In this document: positions 5,652 to 64,000 of the stretch, one piece after another
How the letters are laid out: the number at the start of each line of letters is the position of its first letter
How positions within the stretch are numbered: position 1 is the first letter of the stretch
Source: Cellulosimicrobium cellulans
GTDB lineage: Bacteria; Actinomycetota; Actinomycetes; Actinomycetales; Cellulomonadaceae
NCBI RefSeq assembly: GCF_016921195.1
Contig: NZ_JAFGYF010000004.1
Coordinates: 248,001-312,000 of the forward strand
Direction of reading: 5' to 3'
DNA: 64,000 nucleotides
Notes under the pieces: generated by a model
What the model was told of the DNA's origin: nothing
Databases searched by the model: none
The model's input: only the letters and a program-made list of their open reading frames with translations
Program-made: the position numbers and the translations under genes

Positions 5652-6455
5652 ATGACCGAGGCTCCCGTCCGCCTCGGTGCCCGGTACGCGACGCCGTCGC
5701 GCTGGCAGGTCGCGACTCTCGTCGACGCGTGGGAGGAGAGCCCGACCGCGCGGACGCTCGTCCTCGAGGTCCCCGCCTGGCCAGGGCACCTGGCCGGGCA
5801 GCACGTGGACCTGCGTCTCACCGCACCCGACGGCTACACCGCCGAGCGCAGCTACTCGATCGGCAGCGCGGCGACGCGCGCGAGCGTGCCCGACGACGGC
5901 TCCCCCGCGCGCGTCGAGGTCACCGTGCAGCGCGTCCCGGGAGGGGAGGTCTCGACGTACCTCACCGACGTCTTCGCGATCGGGGACGCGATCGAGCTGC
6001 GCGGGCCGATCGGCGGCTGGTTCGTCTGGTCCCCGGACCGCGACGCCGGGACGCCGGTCCTGCTCGCGGCCGGCGGGTCGGGGCTCGTGCCCCTCATGGC
6101 GATGCTGCGGACCCGCCGCGACGCGGGCGACCGGACGCCGTTCCGGCTCGTCTACTCCGTCCGCCGCCCCGAGGACCGGCTGTACGTCGACGACCTCGAC
6201 CGGCTCGCCTCCGCGCACGACGGTCTCGACGCCCAGGTCGTCTTCACGCGCTCGACGCCGCTCGGGTCGATGCGCGGCCCCGGTCGGCTCGAGCGTCGCG
6301 AGCTCGCAGCGTGGGGCTGGCCGGCCGAGATCGAGCCCGCGTGCTTCGTGTGCGGGCCGACGGGGTTCGTCGAGGCAGTCGCCCGCCAGCTCGTCGCGCT
6401 CGGCCACGACCCGGCGCGGGTCAAGACCGAGCGCTTCGGTCCGGCCGCGGACTGA
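5652..6455 (+). CDS. Ferredoxin/flavodoxin reductase-like FAD-NAD(P) oxidoreductase
   Basis: 267 residues. The N-terminal FAD-binding barrel contains AGQHVDLRL and the flavin motif RSYSIGSA. The NAD(P)-binding half contains LLAAGGSGLVPLMAML and the C-terminal CFVCGPTGFVEAV. No 2Fe-2S domain is fused, unlike many oxygenase reductases. It lies nine bases after the molybdopterin oxidoreductase and very likely passes electrons to or from it. Two-gene units of this type recur in actinobacteria. It is followed by a 900-bp gap rich in repeats. Confidence 0.9.
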   Translation: MTEAPVRLGARYATPSRWQVATLVDAWEESPTARTLVLEVPAWPGHLAGQHVDLRLTAPDGYTAERSYSIGSAATRASVPDDGSPARVEVTVQRVPGGEVSTYLTDVFAIGDAIELRGPIGGWFVWSPDRDAGTPVLLAAGGSGLVPLMAMLRTRRDAGDRTPFRLVYSVRRPEDRLYVDDLDRLASAHDGLDAQVVFTRSTPLGSMRGPGRLERRELAAWGWPAEIEPACFVCGPTGFVEAVARQLVALGHDPARVKTERFGPAAD

Positions 6456-6524
6456 GGGCGGACCGCGGGACCACGCCGACGGCGCCGTCCACCCCGCGCG
6501 GACCCGGGCGTCGCGCTCGCGAGT

Positions 6525-6734
6525 GAACAACCCGGGCGAGCCGAAACGGAACCCTGCTTGGCCGGAGGAGAACCGCAGTCGCACGAGCGAGAACACCGGT
6601 CCGCCGAGGTAGAACCGTGGTCGCGCGAGGTAGAACCGTGGTCACGCGAGGTAGAACCGTGGTCGCGCGAGGTAGAACCGTGGTCCGCCGAGGTAGAACC
6701 GTGGTCCGCCGAGGTAGAGCCATGGCCCGCGCGC
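6525..6734 (+). repeat. Ten-unit 21-bp tandem repeat array
   Basis: A GAAC core recurs at 6525, 6549, 6570, 6591, 6612, 6633, 6654, 6675 and 6696, and as GAGC at 6717. Every interval from 6549 onward is exactly 21 bases. Five units starting at 6609, 6630, 6651, 6672 and 6693 are nearly identical: GTAGAACCGTGGTC, then CGCGCGAG, ACGCGAG or CGCCGAG endings. The left units have decayed in sequence but keep phase. Read on the plus strand the unit encodes the heptad EVEPWSR. Units abut with no unique spacers, so this is not a CRISPR. Inverted copies lie at 7010-7083 and a third cluster at 61836-61884. Confidence 0.93.
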
Positions 6735-6878
6735 GCGAGGTGACCGGTGTGCGCGAGCGCATGTGGTTCACTGCCGAGCCGGAGAGCCAGCCGTAACCAG
6801 CCCGCGCCGACGGCGTCGGGTCGTCCACCGCGGGCGGTCGCCCGGGCGCGCGTCGGACCAGGGCGAGACGACGCCGGG

Positions 6879-6971
6879 CGGGGTGGGTGGTGGTGCCGCG
6901 TCGTGGCGGGCCTGGCGGGAGCCGCGAGGAACGAGCGGCGGATGGTAGACGCGGCACCACCACCCACCCCG
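6879..6971. repeat. 24-bp perfect inverted repeat with 45-base loop
   Basis: The left arm is 6879-6902 (GGGGTGGGTGGTGGTG, then CCGCGTC) and the right arm is 6948-6971 (GACGCGGCACCACC, then ACCCACCCC). They pair perfectly over 24 positions around a 45-base loop. The structure sits midway between the direct 21-bp array and its inverted counterpart, so the whole gap 6525-7083 is organised as nested dyads. No T-tract follows it. No gene is seen in the gap. Confidence 0.88.
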
Positions 6972-7009
6972 ACCACCCAACCCGACCGCACGCCGTCGAG
7001 CACAAGAAC

Positions 7010-7083
7010 CACAGTTCTACCTCGCGCGACCACGGTTCTACCTCGCGCGACCCGGGTTCTATCTCGCGGGACGGGGGTTCTAC
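7010..7083 (-). repeat. Inverted-orientation cluster of the 21-bp repeat
   Basis: GTTC cores at 7014, 7035, 7056 and 7077 are spaced exactly 21 bases. The unit at 7021-7041 is the exact reverse complement of the commonest unit in the array at 6609-6692; those at 7042 and 7063 have a few changes. A transcript through both clusters could pair over several units. Confidence 0.9.
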
Positions 7084-7121
7084 CTCGACGAACATGGCGC
7101 ATCGGGCGCTTGCGGGATCTC

Positions 7122-7150
7122 TTGACGGCCCCTTCAGCCGACAGTAGCGT
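7122..7150 (+). promoter_or_regulatory. Sigma-70-type promoter of the GH87 gene
   Basis: TTGACG (7122-7127), a 17-base spacer and TAGCGT (7145-7150) form a strong housekeeping-type promoter. It would give a leader of about 200 bases before ATG 7358. Confidence 0.65.
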
Positions 7151-7156
7151 TCTTGC

Positions 7157-7179
7157 GTGTTGATGCAAGAATTCAACAC
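7157..7179. promoter_or_regulatory. Candidate repressor operator at the GH87 start site
   Basis: GTGTTGA (7157-7163) and TCAACAC (7173-7179) form a 7-bp dyad with a 9-base spacer. It lies at the predicted transcription start of the promoter 7122-7150. It is unusually AT-rich for this genome, as expected for a regulator-binding site. The regulator is not identifiable here. Confidence 0.45.
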
Positions 7180-7357
7180 ACCGTTGTGCGGTGCGGCACA
7201 GCGGGTCCGCAATTCTCGAAGGTACTGACCCGAGCCACCCGGCCCCGGCCGGACGTGCGCCGCGGCCCGTCCTCCGACCCGGGCGCCCGCTCCGGTGCGG
7301 GGTCGCGCTCGGCGCGGCCTGACGCCCGTCGACGACGACGGGAGATCGAGGACATCG

Positions 7358-10300
7358 ATGAGACATCGACCCAGCACGTCGAACCGCACAACCGCCCAGG
7401 CGCCGCGGCGCCGGCTCCGCCTGCTCGCCGCGGCGGCGGGGGCGGCGGCCCTGCTCGTCCCGCTCGGCCTGACCACGACGGCGACGGCGGCGCCCACGGT
7501 GCTGTCCGCCGGGAAGTCGACGGCGGCGAGCAGCAACAACTCCCCGTACCTGTCCGGCAACCTCACCGACGGCAACCAGGGCACCTACTGGGAGTCGACC
7601 AACAACACGTTCCCGCAGTGGGCACAGGTCGACCTCGGCGCGGCCGCCACGGTCGAGGACCTCGTGCTCAAGCTGCCCACGGGCTGGGAGACCCGCAACC
7701 AGACCCTCAGCGTGCAGGCGAGCACCGACGGCGCGAGCTTCTCCACGATCAAGGCGAGCCAGGCGTACGCGTTCAACCCCGCGTCGGGGAACACCGTGAC
7801 GGTCGACGTGCCGGACACGTCCGCGCGCTACGTGCGCGTGCACATCACCGCGAACACGGGCTGGCCCGCGGGGCAGCTCTCCGAGCTCGAGGTGCGCGGC
7901 ACGGCGGGCACCACGGACCCGGGCGGACCCGGGAACCCCGAGCCGCCCACCGGTACCAACCTCGCGCTGAACAAGCCGATCGAGGCGTCGTCGACGGAGT
8001 GGCAGTTCGTCGCGAAGAACGCGAACGACGACAGCACGTCGACCTACTGGGAGGGCGCGGGCGGCCAGTACCCGAGCACGCTCACGGTCTCGCTCGACGC
8101 CGCGGCCCAGCTCACGGACGTCGTCGTCAAGCTCCCGCCCGCGTCGGTGTGGGGCCCGCGCACCCAGACGTTCGAGGTCCAGGGTCGCGCGACCGCCACC
8201 GGCGCGTGGCAGACCCTCAAGGCCTCCGCGGGCTATGCGTTCTCCCCGAGCACGGGCAACACCGTGACCGTCCCCGTCACCGGCACCGCCAAGGACGTGC
8301 GACTGCGGTTCACCGGCAACACCGGCTCCGGGAACGGTCAGGTCGCCGAGCTCCAGGTGTTCGGCACCGCGGCTCCGAACCCCGACCTCGTCGTCACGAG
8401 CGTCACCGCGACCCCCACGTCGCCGCTGGAGTCGCAGGCGATCACGCTGTCGGCGGTCGTGAAGAACATCGGCACGCAGGCGTCCGCCGCGACCGACGTC
8501 GCGTTCACGCTCGACGGTGAGACCGTCGCGACGAAGCCGGTCGCCGGCCTGGCGGCCGGCGCCCAGGCGACCGTCACCGCCGACGTCGGCGCGCGGCCTG
8601 CCGCGAGCTACACGATCGGTGCGGTCGCCGACGCGGGCGCCACGGTCGCGGAGCAGAACGAGGGCAACAACGCCTACGCGAACCCGACCCCGCTCGTCGT
8701 CACGGCCGTCCCGAGCTCGGACCTCGTCCCGACGCTCACGTGGTCGCCCAGCAACCCGTCCGCGGGGAGCACGGTGACCTTCTCCGCGACGATCGCGAAC
8801 CAGGGCAACGTCGCGACCTCCACGGCTGCCCACGGACTCACCGTGACCGTGACGAACAAAGCGACGGGCGCCGTCGTGCGCACCCTGACGGGCTCCGCGA
8901 GCGGTGCGATCGCCGCGGGCGCGAGCAGCACGAGCGTCGACCTCGGCACGTGGACCGCCGCCGACGGCAACTACGACGTCAAGGTCGTCGCCGCGCCGGA
9001 CTCGACCGAGGTCTCCGCGAAGCAGGCCAACAACACCGTCACCCGCCCGCTCTTCGTCGGGCGCGGCGCCAACCTGCCGTTCGACACGTACGAGGCGGAG
9101 GACGGCGTCACGGGCGGGGGCGCGACCGTGCTGGCGCCGAACCGCGTCGTCGGCGACCTCGCGGGCGAGGCCTCGGGCCGTCGCGCGGTGACGCTCGACC
9201 AGACCGGCGCGTACGTCGAGTGGACCACCAAGGCCCCGACGAACACCCTGCTGACCCGCTTCTCCATCCCCGACTCGGCGGGCGGCGGCGGGACGAACGC
9301 GACCCTCGCGATCTACGTCGACGGCCAGTTCCTCAAGAACATCGATCTCACGTCGCGCTACGCGTGGCTCTACGGCAACGAGACCAACCCGGGCAACCAG
9401 CCGGGCCAGGGCGCGCCGCGGCACATCTACGACGAGGCCAGCACGCTGCTCGGCACGACCGTCCCCGCGGGCTCGACGATCCGTCTCCAGAAGACGGCGA
9501 GCAACACGAGCCGGTACACGATCGACTTCGTCGACCTCGAGCTCGCGACGCCGCAGGCGAACCCGAACCCCGCGCAGTACACGCAGCCTGCGGGCTTCAC
9601 GCACCAGGACGTCCAGGCCGCGCTCGACAAGGTCCGGATGGACACCACGGGCACGCTCAAGGGCGTCTACCTGCCCGCCGGCGACTACCAGACCGCGAAC
9701 AAGTTCCAGGTGTACGGCAAGGCGGTCGACGTCGTCGGCGCCGGGCCGTGGTTCACCCGGTTCTTCGCGCCGCAGGGTCAGGAGAACACCGACGTCGGCT
9801 TCCGCGCCGAGGCGAGCGCGAACGGCTCGACGTTCCGTGACTTCGCGTACTTCGGGAACTACACGTCACGGATCGACGGCCCGGGCAAGGTCTTCGACTT
9901 CGCCAACGTGAAGGACATCCGATCGACAACATCTGGGTCGAGCACATGATCTGCATGTTCTGGGCGTCCAACATGGACGACTCGGAGGTCAAGAACTCCC
10001 GCATCCGCAACACGTTCGCGGACGCGATCAACATGACCAACGGCAGCGCGAACAACCACGTGCACAACAACCAGGCACGCGGCACGGGCGACGACTCGTT
10101 CGCGCTCTTCGCGGCCACCGACAACGGCGGCAGCGGGCAGCGCGGCAACGTGTTCGAGAACCTCACGTCGACCAACACGTGGCGTGCGGCGGGCCTCGCG
10201 GTCTACGGCGGGCAGGACAACACGTTCCGCAACATCTACATCGCGGACACCCTGGTCTACTCGGGCGTCACGATCAGCTCGCTCGACTTCGGCTACCCGA

Positions 10301-10737
10301 TGGAGGGCTTCGGCCCGGCGCCGACGGTGTTCGACGGGCTCACGGTCCTGCGCTCCGGCGGGCACTTCTGGAACGGCCAGGTGTTCGGGGCCGTGTGGAT
10401 GTTCTCGGCGTCGAAGGCGTTCGGGAACATCCAGGTGAACAACCTCGACGTCATCGACCCGACGTACTCCGGGATCATGTTCCAGACGCAGTACCTCGGC
10501 GGCCAGCCGGTCAACCCGATCCAGAACCCGACCTTCACCAACGTCACCATCACGGGGGCGAAGAAGAGCGGTGACCAGTACGACGCGAAGTCCGGTTACG
10601 GCATCTGGGCCAACCCCATGCCGGAGGCCGGCCAGGGTCCGGCGGTCGGCATGGCGACGTTCACCAACCTCACGTTCTCGGGCAACTTCCGGGACATCGA
10701 GAACACGACGTCGACCTTCACCATCACGCGCAACTGA
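7358..10737 (+). pseudogene. Secreted alpha-1,3-glucanase-like enzyme (GH87 type), broken by a one-base frameshift
   Basis: ATG 7358 follows GAGGAC. The protein has an Arg-rich signal peptide (cleavage near residue 45), two F5/8-type C carbohydrate-binding domains (about 46-183 and 203-340), two CARDB-like domains (about 342-448 and 452-570) and a right-handed beta-helix catalytic region from YEAEDG near 574. At 9917-9921 the frame reads KDIRSTTSG and stops. Losing one base restores the expected sense KDI-x-IDNIWVEHMICMFW, which continues in the other frame to 10737. The downstream part carries FADAINM and GTGDDSF, which fit the three catalytic aspartates of GH87. The intact protein would be about 1126 residues. 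The break removes all catalytic residues. It is a real mutation or a sequencing error. Confidence 0.85.
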
Positions 10738-35874: not shown

Positions 35875-35882
35875 CCGGTTCA

Positions 35883-35921
35883 TGCGTACGAACGTACGCA
35901 GCATGTGTACGATCGTCCGCA
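35883..35921 (+). promoter_or_regulatory. Tandem 18-bp operators overlapping the MFS start codon
   Basis: TGCGTACGAACGTACGCA (35883-35900) is a perfect 8-bp-arm dyad. TGTGTACGATCGTCCGCA (35904-35921) is a degenerate copy, and its last base is the A of ATG 35921. Centres are 21 bases apart, two helical turns. No Shine-Dalgarno sequence precedes ATG, so the mRNA may be leaderless. The TetR gene two genes downstream is the obvious candidate regulator. Confidence 0.75.
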
Positions 35922-61826: not shown

Positions 61827-64000
61827 CCAACCTCGGCTCTACCTCGGCGGACCGGGGCTCTACCTCGCGGGCGCGAGGCTGTCCCTCGCGCCACCACGGC
61901 CACCAGTTCCGGCGACCGAGGAGCGTCATCGTCGCGGGCAGCAGGAGCCCGCGCACGACGGTCACGTCGAGCAGCACGGCGACGGCCATGCCGACGCCGA
62001 CCTCCTTCATGGCGACGAGCTCGCCCGCGGCGAAGCCGAGGAACACGATGCCGATGGCGACGGCCGCCGTCGTGACGACCGGGCCGGTCGCGGTGATGCC
62101 GCGGAGCACGGCCCGGTCGTTCGCGGCGCGCGGGTCCTCGCCGGGCGTGCGCGCTCGCCACTCCTCGGCCGTGCGCGCGAGGAGGAACACCTCGTAGTCG
62201 GTCGACAGGCCGAACACGAGCATGCCGATGAGCAGCGGCGTCGTGACGTCGAGCGCGCCCCAGGGTTCGAACCCGAGCAGCGAGGCGCCGACGCCGTGCT
62301 GGAACACCGTGACGAGGACGCCGAGCGTCGCGGCGAGCGTGAGCAGGTTGAGCACGAGCGCCTTGAGCGGCACGACGAGCGAGCCGGTCAGCAGGAAGAG
62401 GAGGACGAACGTCGCGAGCACGACGACGCCCGCCGCGAGCGGGAGGCGCTGCGCGAGGTGCTCCTGGGTGTCGACGACCTCGGCGGCCGGGCCGGCGACG
62501 TGCACGTCGAGGTCGCCGGTGTCGATCGCGCGGATGGCACGCAGCAGGTCCTGGGCCTCGGCGGCGGTCGCGTCGCCACCCTCGCCGACGTCGGGCGTGA
62601 CGTCGACGACGAGGACCTCGGGAGGGTAGTCGGTGTCCTGCATCGCGTCCTCGACGCCGGGCAGGGCCGCGACGCGGTCGAGGTAGGCGGAGGCTGCCTC
62701 GTCCCCGCGCGGCGCCTCGACGAGCACGGTGATCGGGGTGACGCCGAGGTCGGCGAAGCGCGAGGTGGACGCGTCGGCGGCGAGCCGCGCCTCGGCGTCG
62801 GCGGGCAGGGAGCGGACCTCCGAGCTGCCGAGCGTCATCGAGCCGAGCGGCGCCGCGAGCGCGAGGAGGAGTGCCGTCGCGCCGAGCGTGACGAGCACGG
62901 CGTGCCGCTGGGCGGTGCGCGCGAGGCGGCCGAGCGTCCCCGCGCCGCCGCGCCCGGTCCACGGGTGCGACCACGTGCGGGCGCCCGGGGCCGGGACGGC
63001 GCGGTGCCACGTGGCGACGAGCGCGGGCACGAGCGTGAGCCCGGCGGCGGTCGCGACGAGCACGACGACGGCGCCCCCGACAGCCATGCCGGAGAGCAGC
63101 GAGTCGCCGAGCAGGAGCAGGCCGGCAAGGGCGATCGCGACGGCGAGCCCCGACGCGAGGACGGCGCGCCCGGCGGTCGCGAGCGTGCGCCCGACGAGCT
63201 CGTCGAGCGGGAGACCCGGGCTCTCGGCGCGTTCCTCGCGGAAGCGCGCGAGCACGAGCAGGGAGTAGTCGACCGTGAGGCCGAGGCCGAGCAGCGTCAC
63301 GACGTTCACGGCGAACTCGTTGACGGGCACGATCCCCAGCAGGCCGCTGAGCACGAGCAGCGCGACCGCGATGGCGGCGAGCGCGGACAGCAGCGGCACC
63401 AGGCCGGCGCGGAGCCCGCCGAGCACGACGACGAGCACGACGAGCAGGACGGCGATCGCCACGCCCTCGCCCACCGCGGCGTCGGTGATCGCCTGGTCGA
63501 CGAACGCCTCCTCGGCGAGCAGGGCGCCGCCGACGAGCACCTCGGGGGTGTCGATCGTGTGGAGCGCGTCGGCGACCTGGTGCGCGAGGGCCAGCGCCTC
63601 GTCGTCGGACAGCGCGGGGTCGAGCTCGACGACGACGAGGGAGCCCTGGCCGTCGTCGGCGATGAGGCCGCCGCCGGTGTAGGCGTCGAACAGCTCGACG
63701 ACGCCGGGCATCGCGCGGATGCCGTGCATCACCTCGCTCGCCTGGGCGATGAGGTCCGTGGAGAAGTAGTCGCGCCCGGACAGGACCGCGACGACGGTCT
63801 CGCCCTCGGGCTTCAGCTCGTCGAGACGCTCGGCGGCGAGCGCGGAGGCGCTGCCGGGCGGGGCGGGCTCGACGTCGGTGGTCTTGTCGAAGACCGCGCC
63901 GCCGAGCACCGCGCCGACGACGAGGAGGACGGCCCAGACGCCGAGGACGACGGCGCGGCGGCGCGCGGCGAACCGTCCGGTCCGGTGCAGGAGGCGTCCG
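61810..64000 (-). CDS. MMPL-family transporter (N-terminus outside window)
   Basis: The frame runs off the right edge; 729 residues are visible. Two MMPL/RND halves are evident: helices LVPLLSALAAIAVALLVLSGLLG and NVVTLLGLGLTVDYSLLVLARFREER, and again in the second half LLIGMLVFGLSTDYEVFLLARTAEEW. The N-terminal start RLLHRTGRFAARRRAVVLGVW is typical of MMPL proteins, so few residues are missing. They export lipids or drugs by proton motive force. The last 20 residues derive from the 21-bp repeat and the stop lies inside the convergent gene; the natural end was probably near NWWPWWREG. Confidence 0.92.
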   Translation of the reverse strand, partial: GRLLHRTGRFAARRRAVVLGVWAVLLVVGAVLGGAVFDKTTDVEPAPPGSASALAAERLDELKPEGETVVAVLSGRDYFSTDLIAQASEVMHGIRAMPGVVELFDAYTGGGLIADDGQGSLVVVELDPALSDDEALALAHQVADALHTIDTPEVLVGGALLAEEAFVDQAITDAAVGEGVAIAVLLVVLVVVLGGLRAGLVPLLSALAAIAVALLVLSGLLGIVPVNEFAVNVVTLLGLGLTVDYSLLVLARFREERAESPGLPLDELVGRTLATAGRAVLASGLAVAIALAGLLLLGDSLLSGMAVGGAVVVLVATAAGLTLVPALVATWHRAVPAPGARTWSHPWTGRGGAGTLGRLARTAQRHAVLVTLGATALLLALAAPLGSMTLGSSEVRSLPADAEARLAADASTSRFADLGVTPITVLVEAPRGDEAASAYLDRVAALPGVEDAMQDTDYPPEVLVVDVTPDVGEGGDATAAEAQDLLRAIRAIDTGDLDVHVAGPAAEVVDTQEHLAQRLPLAAGVVVLATFVLLFLLTGSLVVPLKALVLNLLTLAATLGVLVTVFQHGVGASLLGFEPWGALDVTTPLLIGMLVFGLSTDYEVFLLARTAEEWRARTPGEDPRAANDRAVLRGITATGPVVTTAAVAIGIVFLGFAAGELVAMKEVGVGMAVAVLLDVTVVRGLLLPATMTLLGRRNWWPWWREGQPRAREVEPRSAEVEPRLVRRRA
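61836..61884 (-). repeat. Third cluster of the 21-bp repeat, coding for the MMPL C-terminus
   Basis: Cores GCTC at 61836 and 61857 and GCTG at 61878 are spaced exactly 21 bases; the clean unit is 61843-61863. On the minus strand the repeat is translated in frame as REVEPRSAEVEPRLV, the same heptad as encoded at 6609-6720. Confidence 0.85.

Follow-up and report, generated by a model that had tools for sequence, protein, structure and literature searches.

Facing arrays of a 21-bp unit, some of them around a structured hairpin, are dispersed through the Cellulosimicrobium cellulans genome, mostly at gene 3' ends

Introduction

Dispersed palindromes of bacterial genomes are best known from the Proteobacteria, and many of them are associated with a RAYT transposase; REP and BIME sequences are short, high-copy extragenic palindromes that include GTAG- and CGTC-tagged families (PMC3733652). 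The repeats of Cellulosimicrobium described here resemble REP and BIME sequences in being short, high-copy extragenic palindromes found mainly in gaps between convergent or same-direction genes, with pairs in opposite orientation common, some copies inside genes, and a tandem reiteration that some REP/BIME families share (PMC3733652). Unlike REP/BIME, the arms of the Cellulosimicrobium repeats grow as 21-bp arrays and are joined to a hairpin module with a conserved loop.

Mycobacterial MIRUs are intergenic tandem repeats of variable copy number that can overlap stop codons. The Cellulosimicrobium repeats are likewise actinobacterial, intergenic, tandem, variable in copy number, and able to overlap stop codons, but their unit is much shorter, has a palindromic core, and occurs in facing pairs. 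The ends of Tn7 and Mu carry repeated 22-bp transposase sites, and the arrays are similar to them in that phased sites about two helical turns apart face each other across a cargo. In contrast to Tn7 and Mu, no transposase was found (the Y1 family was searched), no target duplication was seen, arrays have up to 12 units, and array positions are common to several species. The hairpin resembles the structured RNAs collected in Rfam in that its stems covary heavily and its loop segments are nearly invariant. Among the papers listed by searches of an open-access library, we recognized no earlier account of the 21-bp unit or of the hairpin.

Results and Discussion

Anatomy of the element

The window is a 64,000-nucleotide stretch (C18:248001-312000) of the 4.58-Mb draft genome of C. 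cellulans, which is assembled in 23 contigs. An earlier note on the window had described an intergenic array of ten units in strict phase, with ten GAAC cores, nine of them at exact 21-base spacing. The array is real, but it has nine GAAC cores, at 6525, 6549, 6570, 6591, 6612, 6633, 6654, 6675, and 6696, and one GAGC, at 6717. Nine of the ten units, namely the GAGC and the eight GAAC units that precede it (6549 to 6717), are joined by exact 21-base steps, and the strict phase claimed for the array applies to these; the outermost core, at 6525, lies 24 bases from the next one and is off phase by 3. The core GAGGTAGA(A/G)CC is present in the units that start at 6606, 6627, 6648, 6669, 6690, and 6711. 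The longest in-register chain of GAAC has eight members in the array, compared with two in the rest of the window and two in a set of 30 random sequences, each 64 kb long and similar in composition. TRF independently detected the array, with scores of 190 at period 21 and 216 at period 42.

Positions 6525 to 7090 comprise two facing arrays of the 21-bp unit around a 187-bp module that carries a 97-nt hairpin (Table 1). RNA folding predicts that the two arrays pair with each other, with the hairpin nested between them. The inverted partner array, the hairpin between the arrays, and the small copy at 61835 to 61866 are additions to the earlier note.

Table 1. Features of the element and its surroundings in the window
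Feature	Position	Strand	Remarks
Upstream gene, FAD/NAD-binding oxidoreductase	5652..6455	+	ends about 70 bp before the left array
Left array	6525..6734	+	nine units in exact 21-bp register and one decayed core
187-bp module	6826..7012	+	repeated genome-wide; ends directly at the facing array
Long hairpin, 97 nt	6877..6973	+	26-bp outer stem, inner stem, and almost invariant loop segments; covaries across the family
Conserved loop core TC-GTGGCGGGCCTGGCGGGAG-CCGC-GAGGAACGA-GCGG-CGGATGGTA-GA	6901..6949	+	
Right facing array, four units	7013..7086	-	cores at 7013, 7034, 7055, and 7076
Downstream gene, alpha-1,3-glucanase-like protein	7358..9949	+	F5/8C and CARDB domains
Second copy, two units	61835..61866	-	inside an MMPL-family gene, at its 3' end; codes for part of the C-terminal tail

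A genome-wide family of facing arrays

The genome-wide search for the unit that the earlier note had proposed shows that the unit is not confined to this locus. Exact copies of the 11-mer GAGGTAGAACC number 187 in the genome, compared with 2 for a reversed control, and a two-unit pattern with up to three mismatches occurs 392 times versus 4 for its control. Clusters, defined as two or more units with at most one mismatch and at least one of them exact, were collected from 50 stretches around matches and from the window; the rest of contig C20 and contigs C21 to C23 fell outside this sample, so the counts are minima. The 51 stretches contain at least 61 clusters, with units on both strands in 39 of the 61 and on one strand only in the other 22, some of which are cut by contig ends. 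Arrays range from 3 to 12 units (151 arrays with at least three units).

The arrays have a preferred orientation toward each other. Among neighboring runs less than 3 kb apart with at least two units each, 26 are facing, none diverging, and 6 in the same direction, and when exact single units are added the numbers become 33, 0, and 7. If single one-mismatch units, which are taken as chance matches, are also kept, 43 are facing, 24 diverging, and 27 in the same direction.

The two-unit pattern was found in 13 of 17 genomes of the genus, that of C. cellulans included, and is lacking in 4; only 1 of the 42 other relatives searched had it, as a single match. Among the matches listed, the named records that bear the repeat are mostly C. 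cellulans and C. funkei. Two contigs labeled Desulfuromonadales (L071 and L128; GC 0.60-0.61) contain 21-bp GGCTCTACCTCTTCCGCAACA repeats that look like unrelated coding repeats and were treated as unrelated, as were the matches at L120, L136, and L140 (GC 0.31, 0.60, and 0.39). These five loci and L091, a Promicromonospora locus with one two-unit match, are left out of the unit statistics.

Ten of the 23 contigs of the C. cellulans assembly (C2, C3, C4, C5, C7, C8, C9, C11, C17, and C18) start less than about 400 bp from an array. The repeats seem to break the assembly at contig starts, and array counts are therefore lower bounds.

The unit and its palindromic form

The consensus of the unit was derived from units lying between two exact neighbors, which avoids detection bias (58 units from the C. 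cellulans genome and 154 from all loci). Positions 1-8, 10-11, 13-16, and 21 are strongly conserved, with positions 4, 13, and 21 the least so, and positions 9, 12, and 17-20 are variable. Position 9 depends on the species: it is mostly A in the C. cellulans genome (150 A and 68 G) and mostly G in four relatives (A:G of 15:110, 1:70, 1:44, and 6:23).

The compact form of the element is a 36-bp palindrome. The cores are separated by exactly 14 bp in 24 of 44 close pairs, which were collected with up to two mismatches per core, so that some are chance pairs. The two arms of a palindrome agree within a locus at 15.24 of 17 positions, compared with 14.71 in within-genome permutations (n = 29), and such agreement was reached by 18 of 10,000 permutations; the arms thus change together. 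The ends of the arrays are decayed: the two end units have means of 1.99 and 1.67 mismatches versus 0.64-1.05 for those one to three units inside. A polarity of array growth was considered and dropped because both ends decay about equally. A half-turn subrepeat, GnGGTnG every 10-11 bp, was also dropped as not significant (shuffle p of 0.10-0.17 for three Cellulosimicrobium units and 0.64 for the unit of genome G071, from another genus of the family).

A palindrome of 36 bp in at least 61 clusters has the size (20-40 bp), high copy number, and extragenic position of REP/REPIN sequences, and the rarity of divergent gene gaps is also shared (36 convergent, 29 tandem, and 4 divergent arrays). The unpaired terminal GTAG or CGTC tag of REP/REPIN is lacking, however: GTAG sits within the palindrome arm, and it is absent from the GAGATAGAGGG unit of the congener G003 and from the unit of G071. 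The Y1 (RAYT) transposase, PF01797, was found in none of the 17 genus genomes but in 5 of 14 control genomes. A RAYT-type mobilizer is unlikely, and because neither a RAYT nor a terminal tag is present, the element is not filed as a RAYT-REP.

The reading that we favor, with a probability of about 0.5, is that the left array belongs, as one of two arms, to a REP/BIME-like composite element dispersed at gene 3' ends, whose arms a putative protein would read every two turns. The elementary form would be the 36-bp palindrome, mostly at gene 3' ends. Tandem copying of its half-site, the 21-bp unit, would produce two facing arrays, and in the long form, which would be the case in the window, the 187-bp module with its conserved-loop hairpin would lie between them. 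Copy number may shift by slippage or unequal recombination, and the putative protein would hold the spacing by binding successive units from the same side of the helix, two turns apart. The facing arms may mark or insulate gene 3' ends, as a protein-bound boundary, a folded transcript end, or both.

Retention of the 21-bp phase

The earlier note had stated that spacing is preserved better than sequence, and this proved correct. With cores of at most one mismatch, the arrays of the C. cellulans genome have 10 spacings other than 21 versus 582 substitutions between neighboring units, whereas the control, 69 orthologous unit-free intergenic comparisons, has 179 indels of at most 6 bases versus 835 substitutions; indels per substitution are 0.017 in the arrays and 0.214 in the controls. 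The ratio for the arrays is 0.022-0.027 when two mismatches are allowed or when all Cellulosimicrobium loci are used, and about 0.04-0.05 with three-mismatch cores, chance cores included (39 to 1003 in the C. cellulans genome; 105 to 2238 at all loci). Thus, depending on the matching stringency, the arrays have 5- to 12-fold fewer indels per substitution than ordinary intergenic DNA, with the caveat that substitutions in block-copied units are counted repeatedly and that the control indel rate depends on alignment penalties. The majority of off-phase spacings are 20, followed by 19 and 22; 41 and others also occur.

In G071 the unit is GTCARCCACGAC followed by 9 bp, and the units are facing in all five clusters (L250, L265, L271, L273, and L275). 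The spacing in its arrays is 20 or 21, or 40 or 42 where a unit was missed, and at L273 one array starts 3 bases past the end of the called gene. The G071 arrays independently support the retention of phase. The suggestion in the earlier note that the spacing reflects two helical turns is supported both by this retention and by the finding of a 20-21-bp period in another genus, where the unit is a different one. Within Cellulosimicrobium, G012 has the unit GAGGTAGTACC / GAAGTAGTACC, which is facing around the hairpin in three of the six loci compared.

It is possible, but in our view doubtful, that the arrays are instead satellite DNA, purely selfish or neutral, in which slippage extends the arms of a REP-like palindrome and the period of 21 results from the copying of whole units, with no selection on phase. 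Such a satellite would fit the differences in unit number at one site between species, the decay of both array ends, the 42-bp periodicity, and the overrunning of stop codons by the arrays. It fits less well with indels per substitution roughly 5- to 12-fold rarer than in neighboring intergenic DNA, or with the same period in another genus that has a different unit. The earlier note had offered selection on spacing or recent expansion by slippage as alternatives. Phase retention speaks for the former, and slippage plausibly sets the number of units, which varies between species.

Position relative to genes

Genes were called with a codon-usage caller, whose calls in the window were inspected visually. 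Arrays are found between convergent genes (36), between same-direction genes (29), between divergent genes (4), inside called genes (6), and at the edges of stretches (15). For comparison, these stretches contain 290 gaps of 60 bp or more, counting those that bear arrays: 50 convergent, 148 same-direction, and 92 divergent. Sixty-nine of the 75 non-edge arrays are outside called genes. Of these 69 classifiable arrays, 52 have the 3' end of the outer gene beside them, compared with a gene end at 248 of 580 borders of intergenic gaps (p 6e-8 in a binomial test, which leaves out the 6 inside-gene and 15 edge arrays and counts two arrays that share a gap as independent although they are not). In the remaining 17 of 69 a gene start abuts the array.

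The median distance from the gene 3' end to the array is 14 bp, and arrays overrun stop codons: judged by the start of the first detectable unit, the stop codon is the unit's own TAG in 11 of the 52 arrays at gene ends. The units at 61835 to 61866 encode the tail of the MMPL protein, and in two relatives the hairpin is in this tail, in one of them together with units. The conclusion of the earlier note that the array does not code for a supported protein is true of the left array but not of some other copies, which provide stop codons or C-terminal tails.

Bidirectional terminators, or stabilizers of mRNA 3' ends, that work as RNA hairpins would be expected to show this bias to gene ends and convergent genes, and the compact elements do fold strongly (mean of -25.5 kcal/mol, n = 29; z of -8.7 in one example) and have covarying arms. 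However, TTTT was found within 12 nt on neither strand of any of the 29 compact elements. Intrinsic terminators were rejected on this count, and because no adjoining TTTT is present the compact elements are not classical terminators. Furthermore, a stem does not need a single genome-wide sequence, and a hairpin does not need retention of 21-bp spacing. We consider a function purely as such RNA hairpins unlikely.

The module and its hairpin

The hairpin is strongly supported as a structured element separate from the arrays. A full or near full-length module is present in 14 of the 33 facing pairs in the C. cellulans genome, the window included, and a fragment in three more; near full-length modules in these pairs are 89-96% identical. 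In 27 copies chosen for diversity, both sides change in 24 of the 31 base pairs of the hairpin. There are 163 covarying cells versus 45.7 in shuffles, a value that none of 500 shuffles reached, and sliding the partner by 1-3 columns lowers paired cells from 94% to 40-51%.

The near-invariant loop segments are GTGGCGGGYCTGGCGGGAG, GAGGVACGA, and CGGATGGWA. Their invariance is in part a product of selection, because copies were gathered with a loose loop pattern, but similarity searches made without the pattern also retain the loop best. Among 63 distinct stems, 56 show perfect pairing of the inner stem. On the loop strand these 63 stems have 24 G-T pairs versus 5 A-C mismatches, with 45 other mismatches, and as the copies are partly related by descent the comparison is not a clean probability. 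The excess of G-T suggests that the loop strand is the strand that folds, either as RNA or as single-stranded DNA.

Among 111 hairpins, 24 of those located between same-direction genes are in the sense orientation and 19 in the antisense orientation, and all 10 inside called genes are antisense, in about six independent genes. The antisense in-gene hairpins are at L181 (LigD), L160, L179, L214, and L218 (NHL-repeat protein), L061 and L086 (MMPL), L161 (glycosyltransferase), L237, and L256. In LigD of G007 the hairpin lies between the phosphoesterase and ligase domains. At L174 (G014) a sense-strand hairpin is found where the LigD homologue changes frame, at a site called intergenic.

The hairpin motif can be searched for elsewhere with a covariance model. 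Model R1 matches 49 of 150 genomes of the family, in 11 of 25 genera, and in a phylum sample it matches 2 of 396 genomes, the source genome and a weak match in the same order (E 9e-5). The number of matches reported for each genome was capped in both searches. No Rfam 15 family reached its gathering score in 14 hairpin loci; in the window, from 6400 to 7400, the only Rfam hit was MIR1437, a microRNA hairpin model, at 27.1 bits versus a gathering score of 168.

History of the site

The orthologous site was compared in 15 congeners, with G001 left out at a contig end. The module and right array are present in the C. cellulans genome and in G004, G005, G006, G011, and G016 and were not found in the other ten congeners. 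A left array of more than one unit is present in the C. cellulans genome but in none of the 15 congeners. Behind the oxidoreductase gene, 10 of the 15 congeners have a small reverse-strand frame of about 56 amino acids that is membrane-like, and the left array begins where this frame lies in them. The frame was not found in the C. cellulans genome (window positions 6456 to 6530) or in G005, G010, G007, G003, and G013. At the orthologous site of G003 and of G014 there is a small palindromic cluster built of the GAGATAGAGGG unit, and two-unit arrays of GAGATAGAGGG have three exact matches, all in G003. The number of units at one site varies between species. Many array sites are common to several species, and these shared sites are therefore old.

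If the arrays were transposase-binding sites at the ends of miniature transposons, with the hairpin module as cargo, the facing orientation would be readily understood: all oppositely oriented neighbors are facing (33 of 33, and 26 of 26 with the stricter runs), and a facing unit accompanies 42 of the 44 amplified-type modules from all loci, at most 120 nt away and on the same side. That species differ in having or lacking the element at a site also fits. However, this explanation is improbable, because many sites are old, neither a clean empty site nor a target duplication was seen by eye among the gaps listed, and no transposase candidate emerged, with Y1, the family searched, in 0 of 17 genomes.

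The iteron or parS-like replication or partition site proposed in the earlier note would account for phased short direct repeats but is very improbable for at least 61 clusters that are dispersed over many contigs, often face to face and mostly at gene 3' ends, with metabolic neighbors in the window (the oxidoreductase and glucanase genes) rather than replication or partition genes, and with a unit that was unmatched in plasmid and phage collections. As the earlier note had also said, the array is not a CRISPR, a class rejected here because the units are contiguous, head to tail, and have no unique spacers.

The composite 3'-end element read by a protein every two turns remains the reading that we prefer. 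These repeats are an actinobacterial counterpart of REP/BIME for which no Y1 transposase was found and whose spacing is better conserved than their sequence. The old question of selfish repeat versus site for an architectural protein becomes directly testable here by phase shift. A wider proposal, which we put forward tentatively and consider speculative, is a 3'-end boundary system common to the actinobacterial family, in which a protein would read facing arrays every two turns. The recognition sequence of this protein would drift between lineages, with phase and facing geometry retained. The arrays would be joined to an undescribed structured RNA, or a strand-specific DNA hairpin, with a near-invariant loop that might, in dozens of copies per genome, have one trans-acting partner.

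Two other observations concern the window. The CatAgl_D2 catalytic domain (alpha-1,3-glucanase) downstream of the element is split over overlapping frames at 7358-9949 and 9946-10737, with profile positions 8-109 in the first frame and 121-360 in the second, a split suggestive of a frameshift or of an error in sequencing. At 35881-35921, two 21-bp copies of the palindromic CATGCGTACGAACGTACGCAG lie immediately upstream of a gene called at 35921; this pair looks like an operator.
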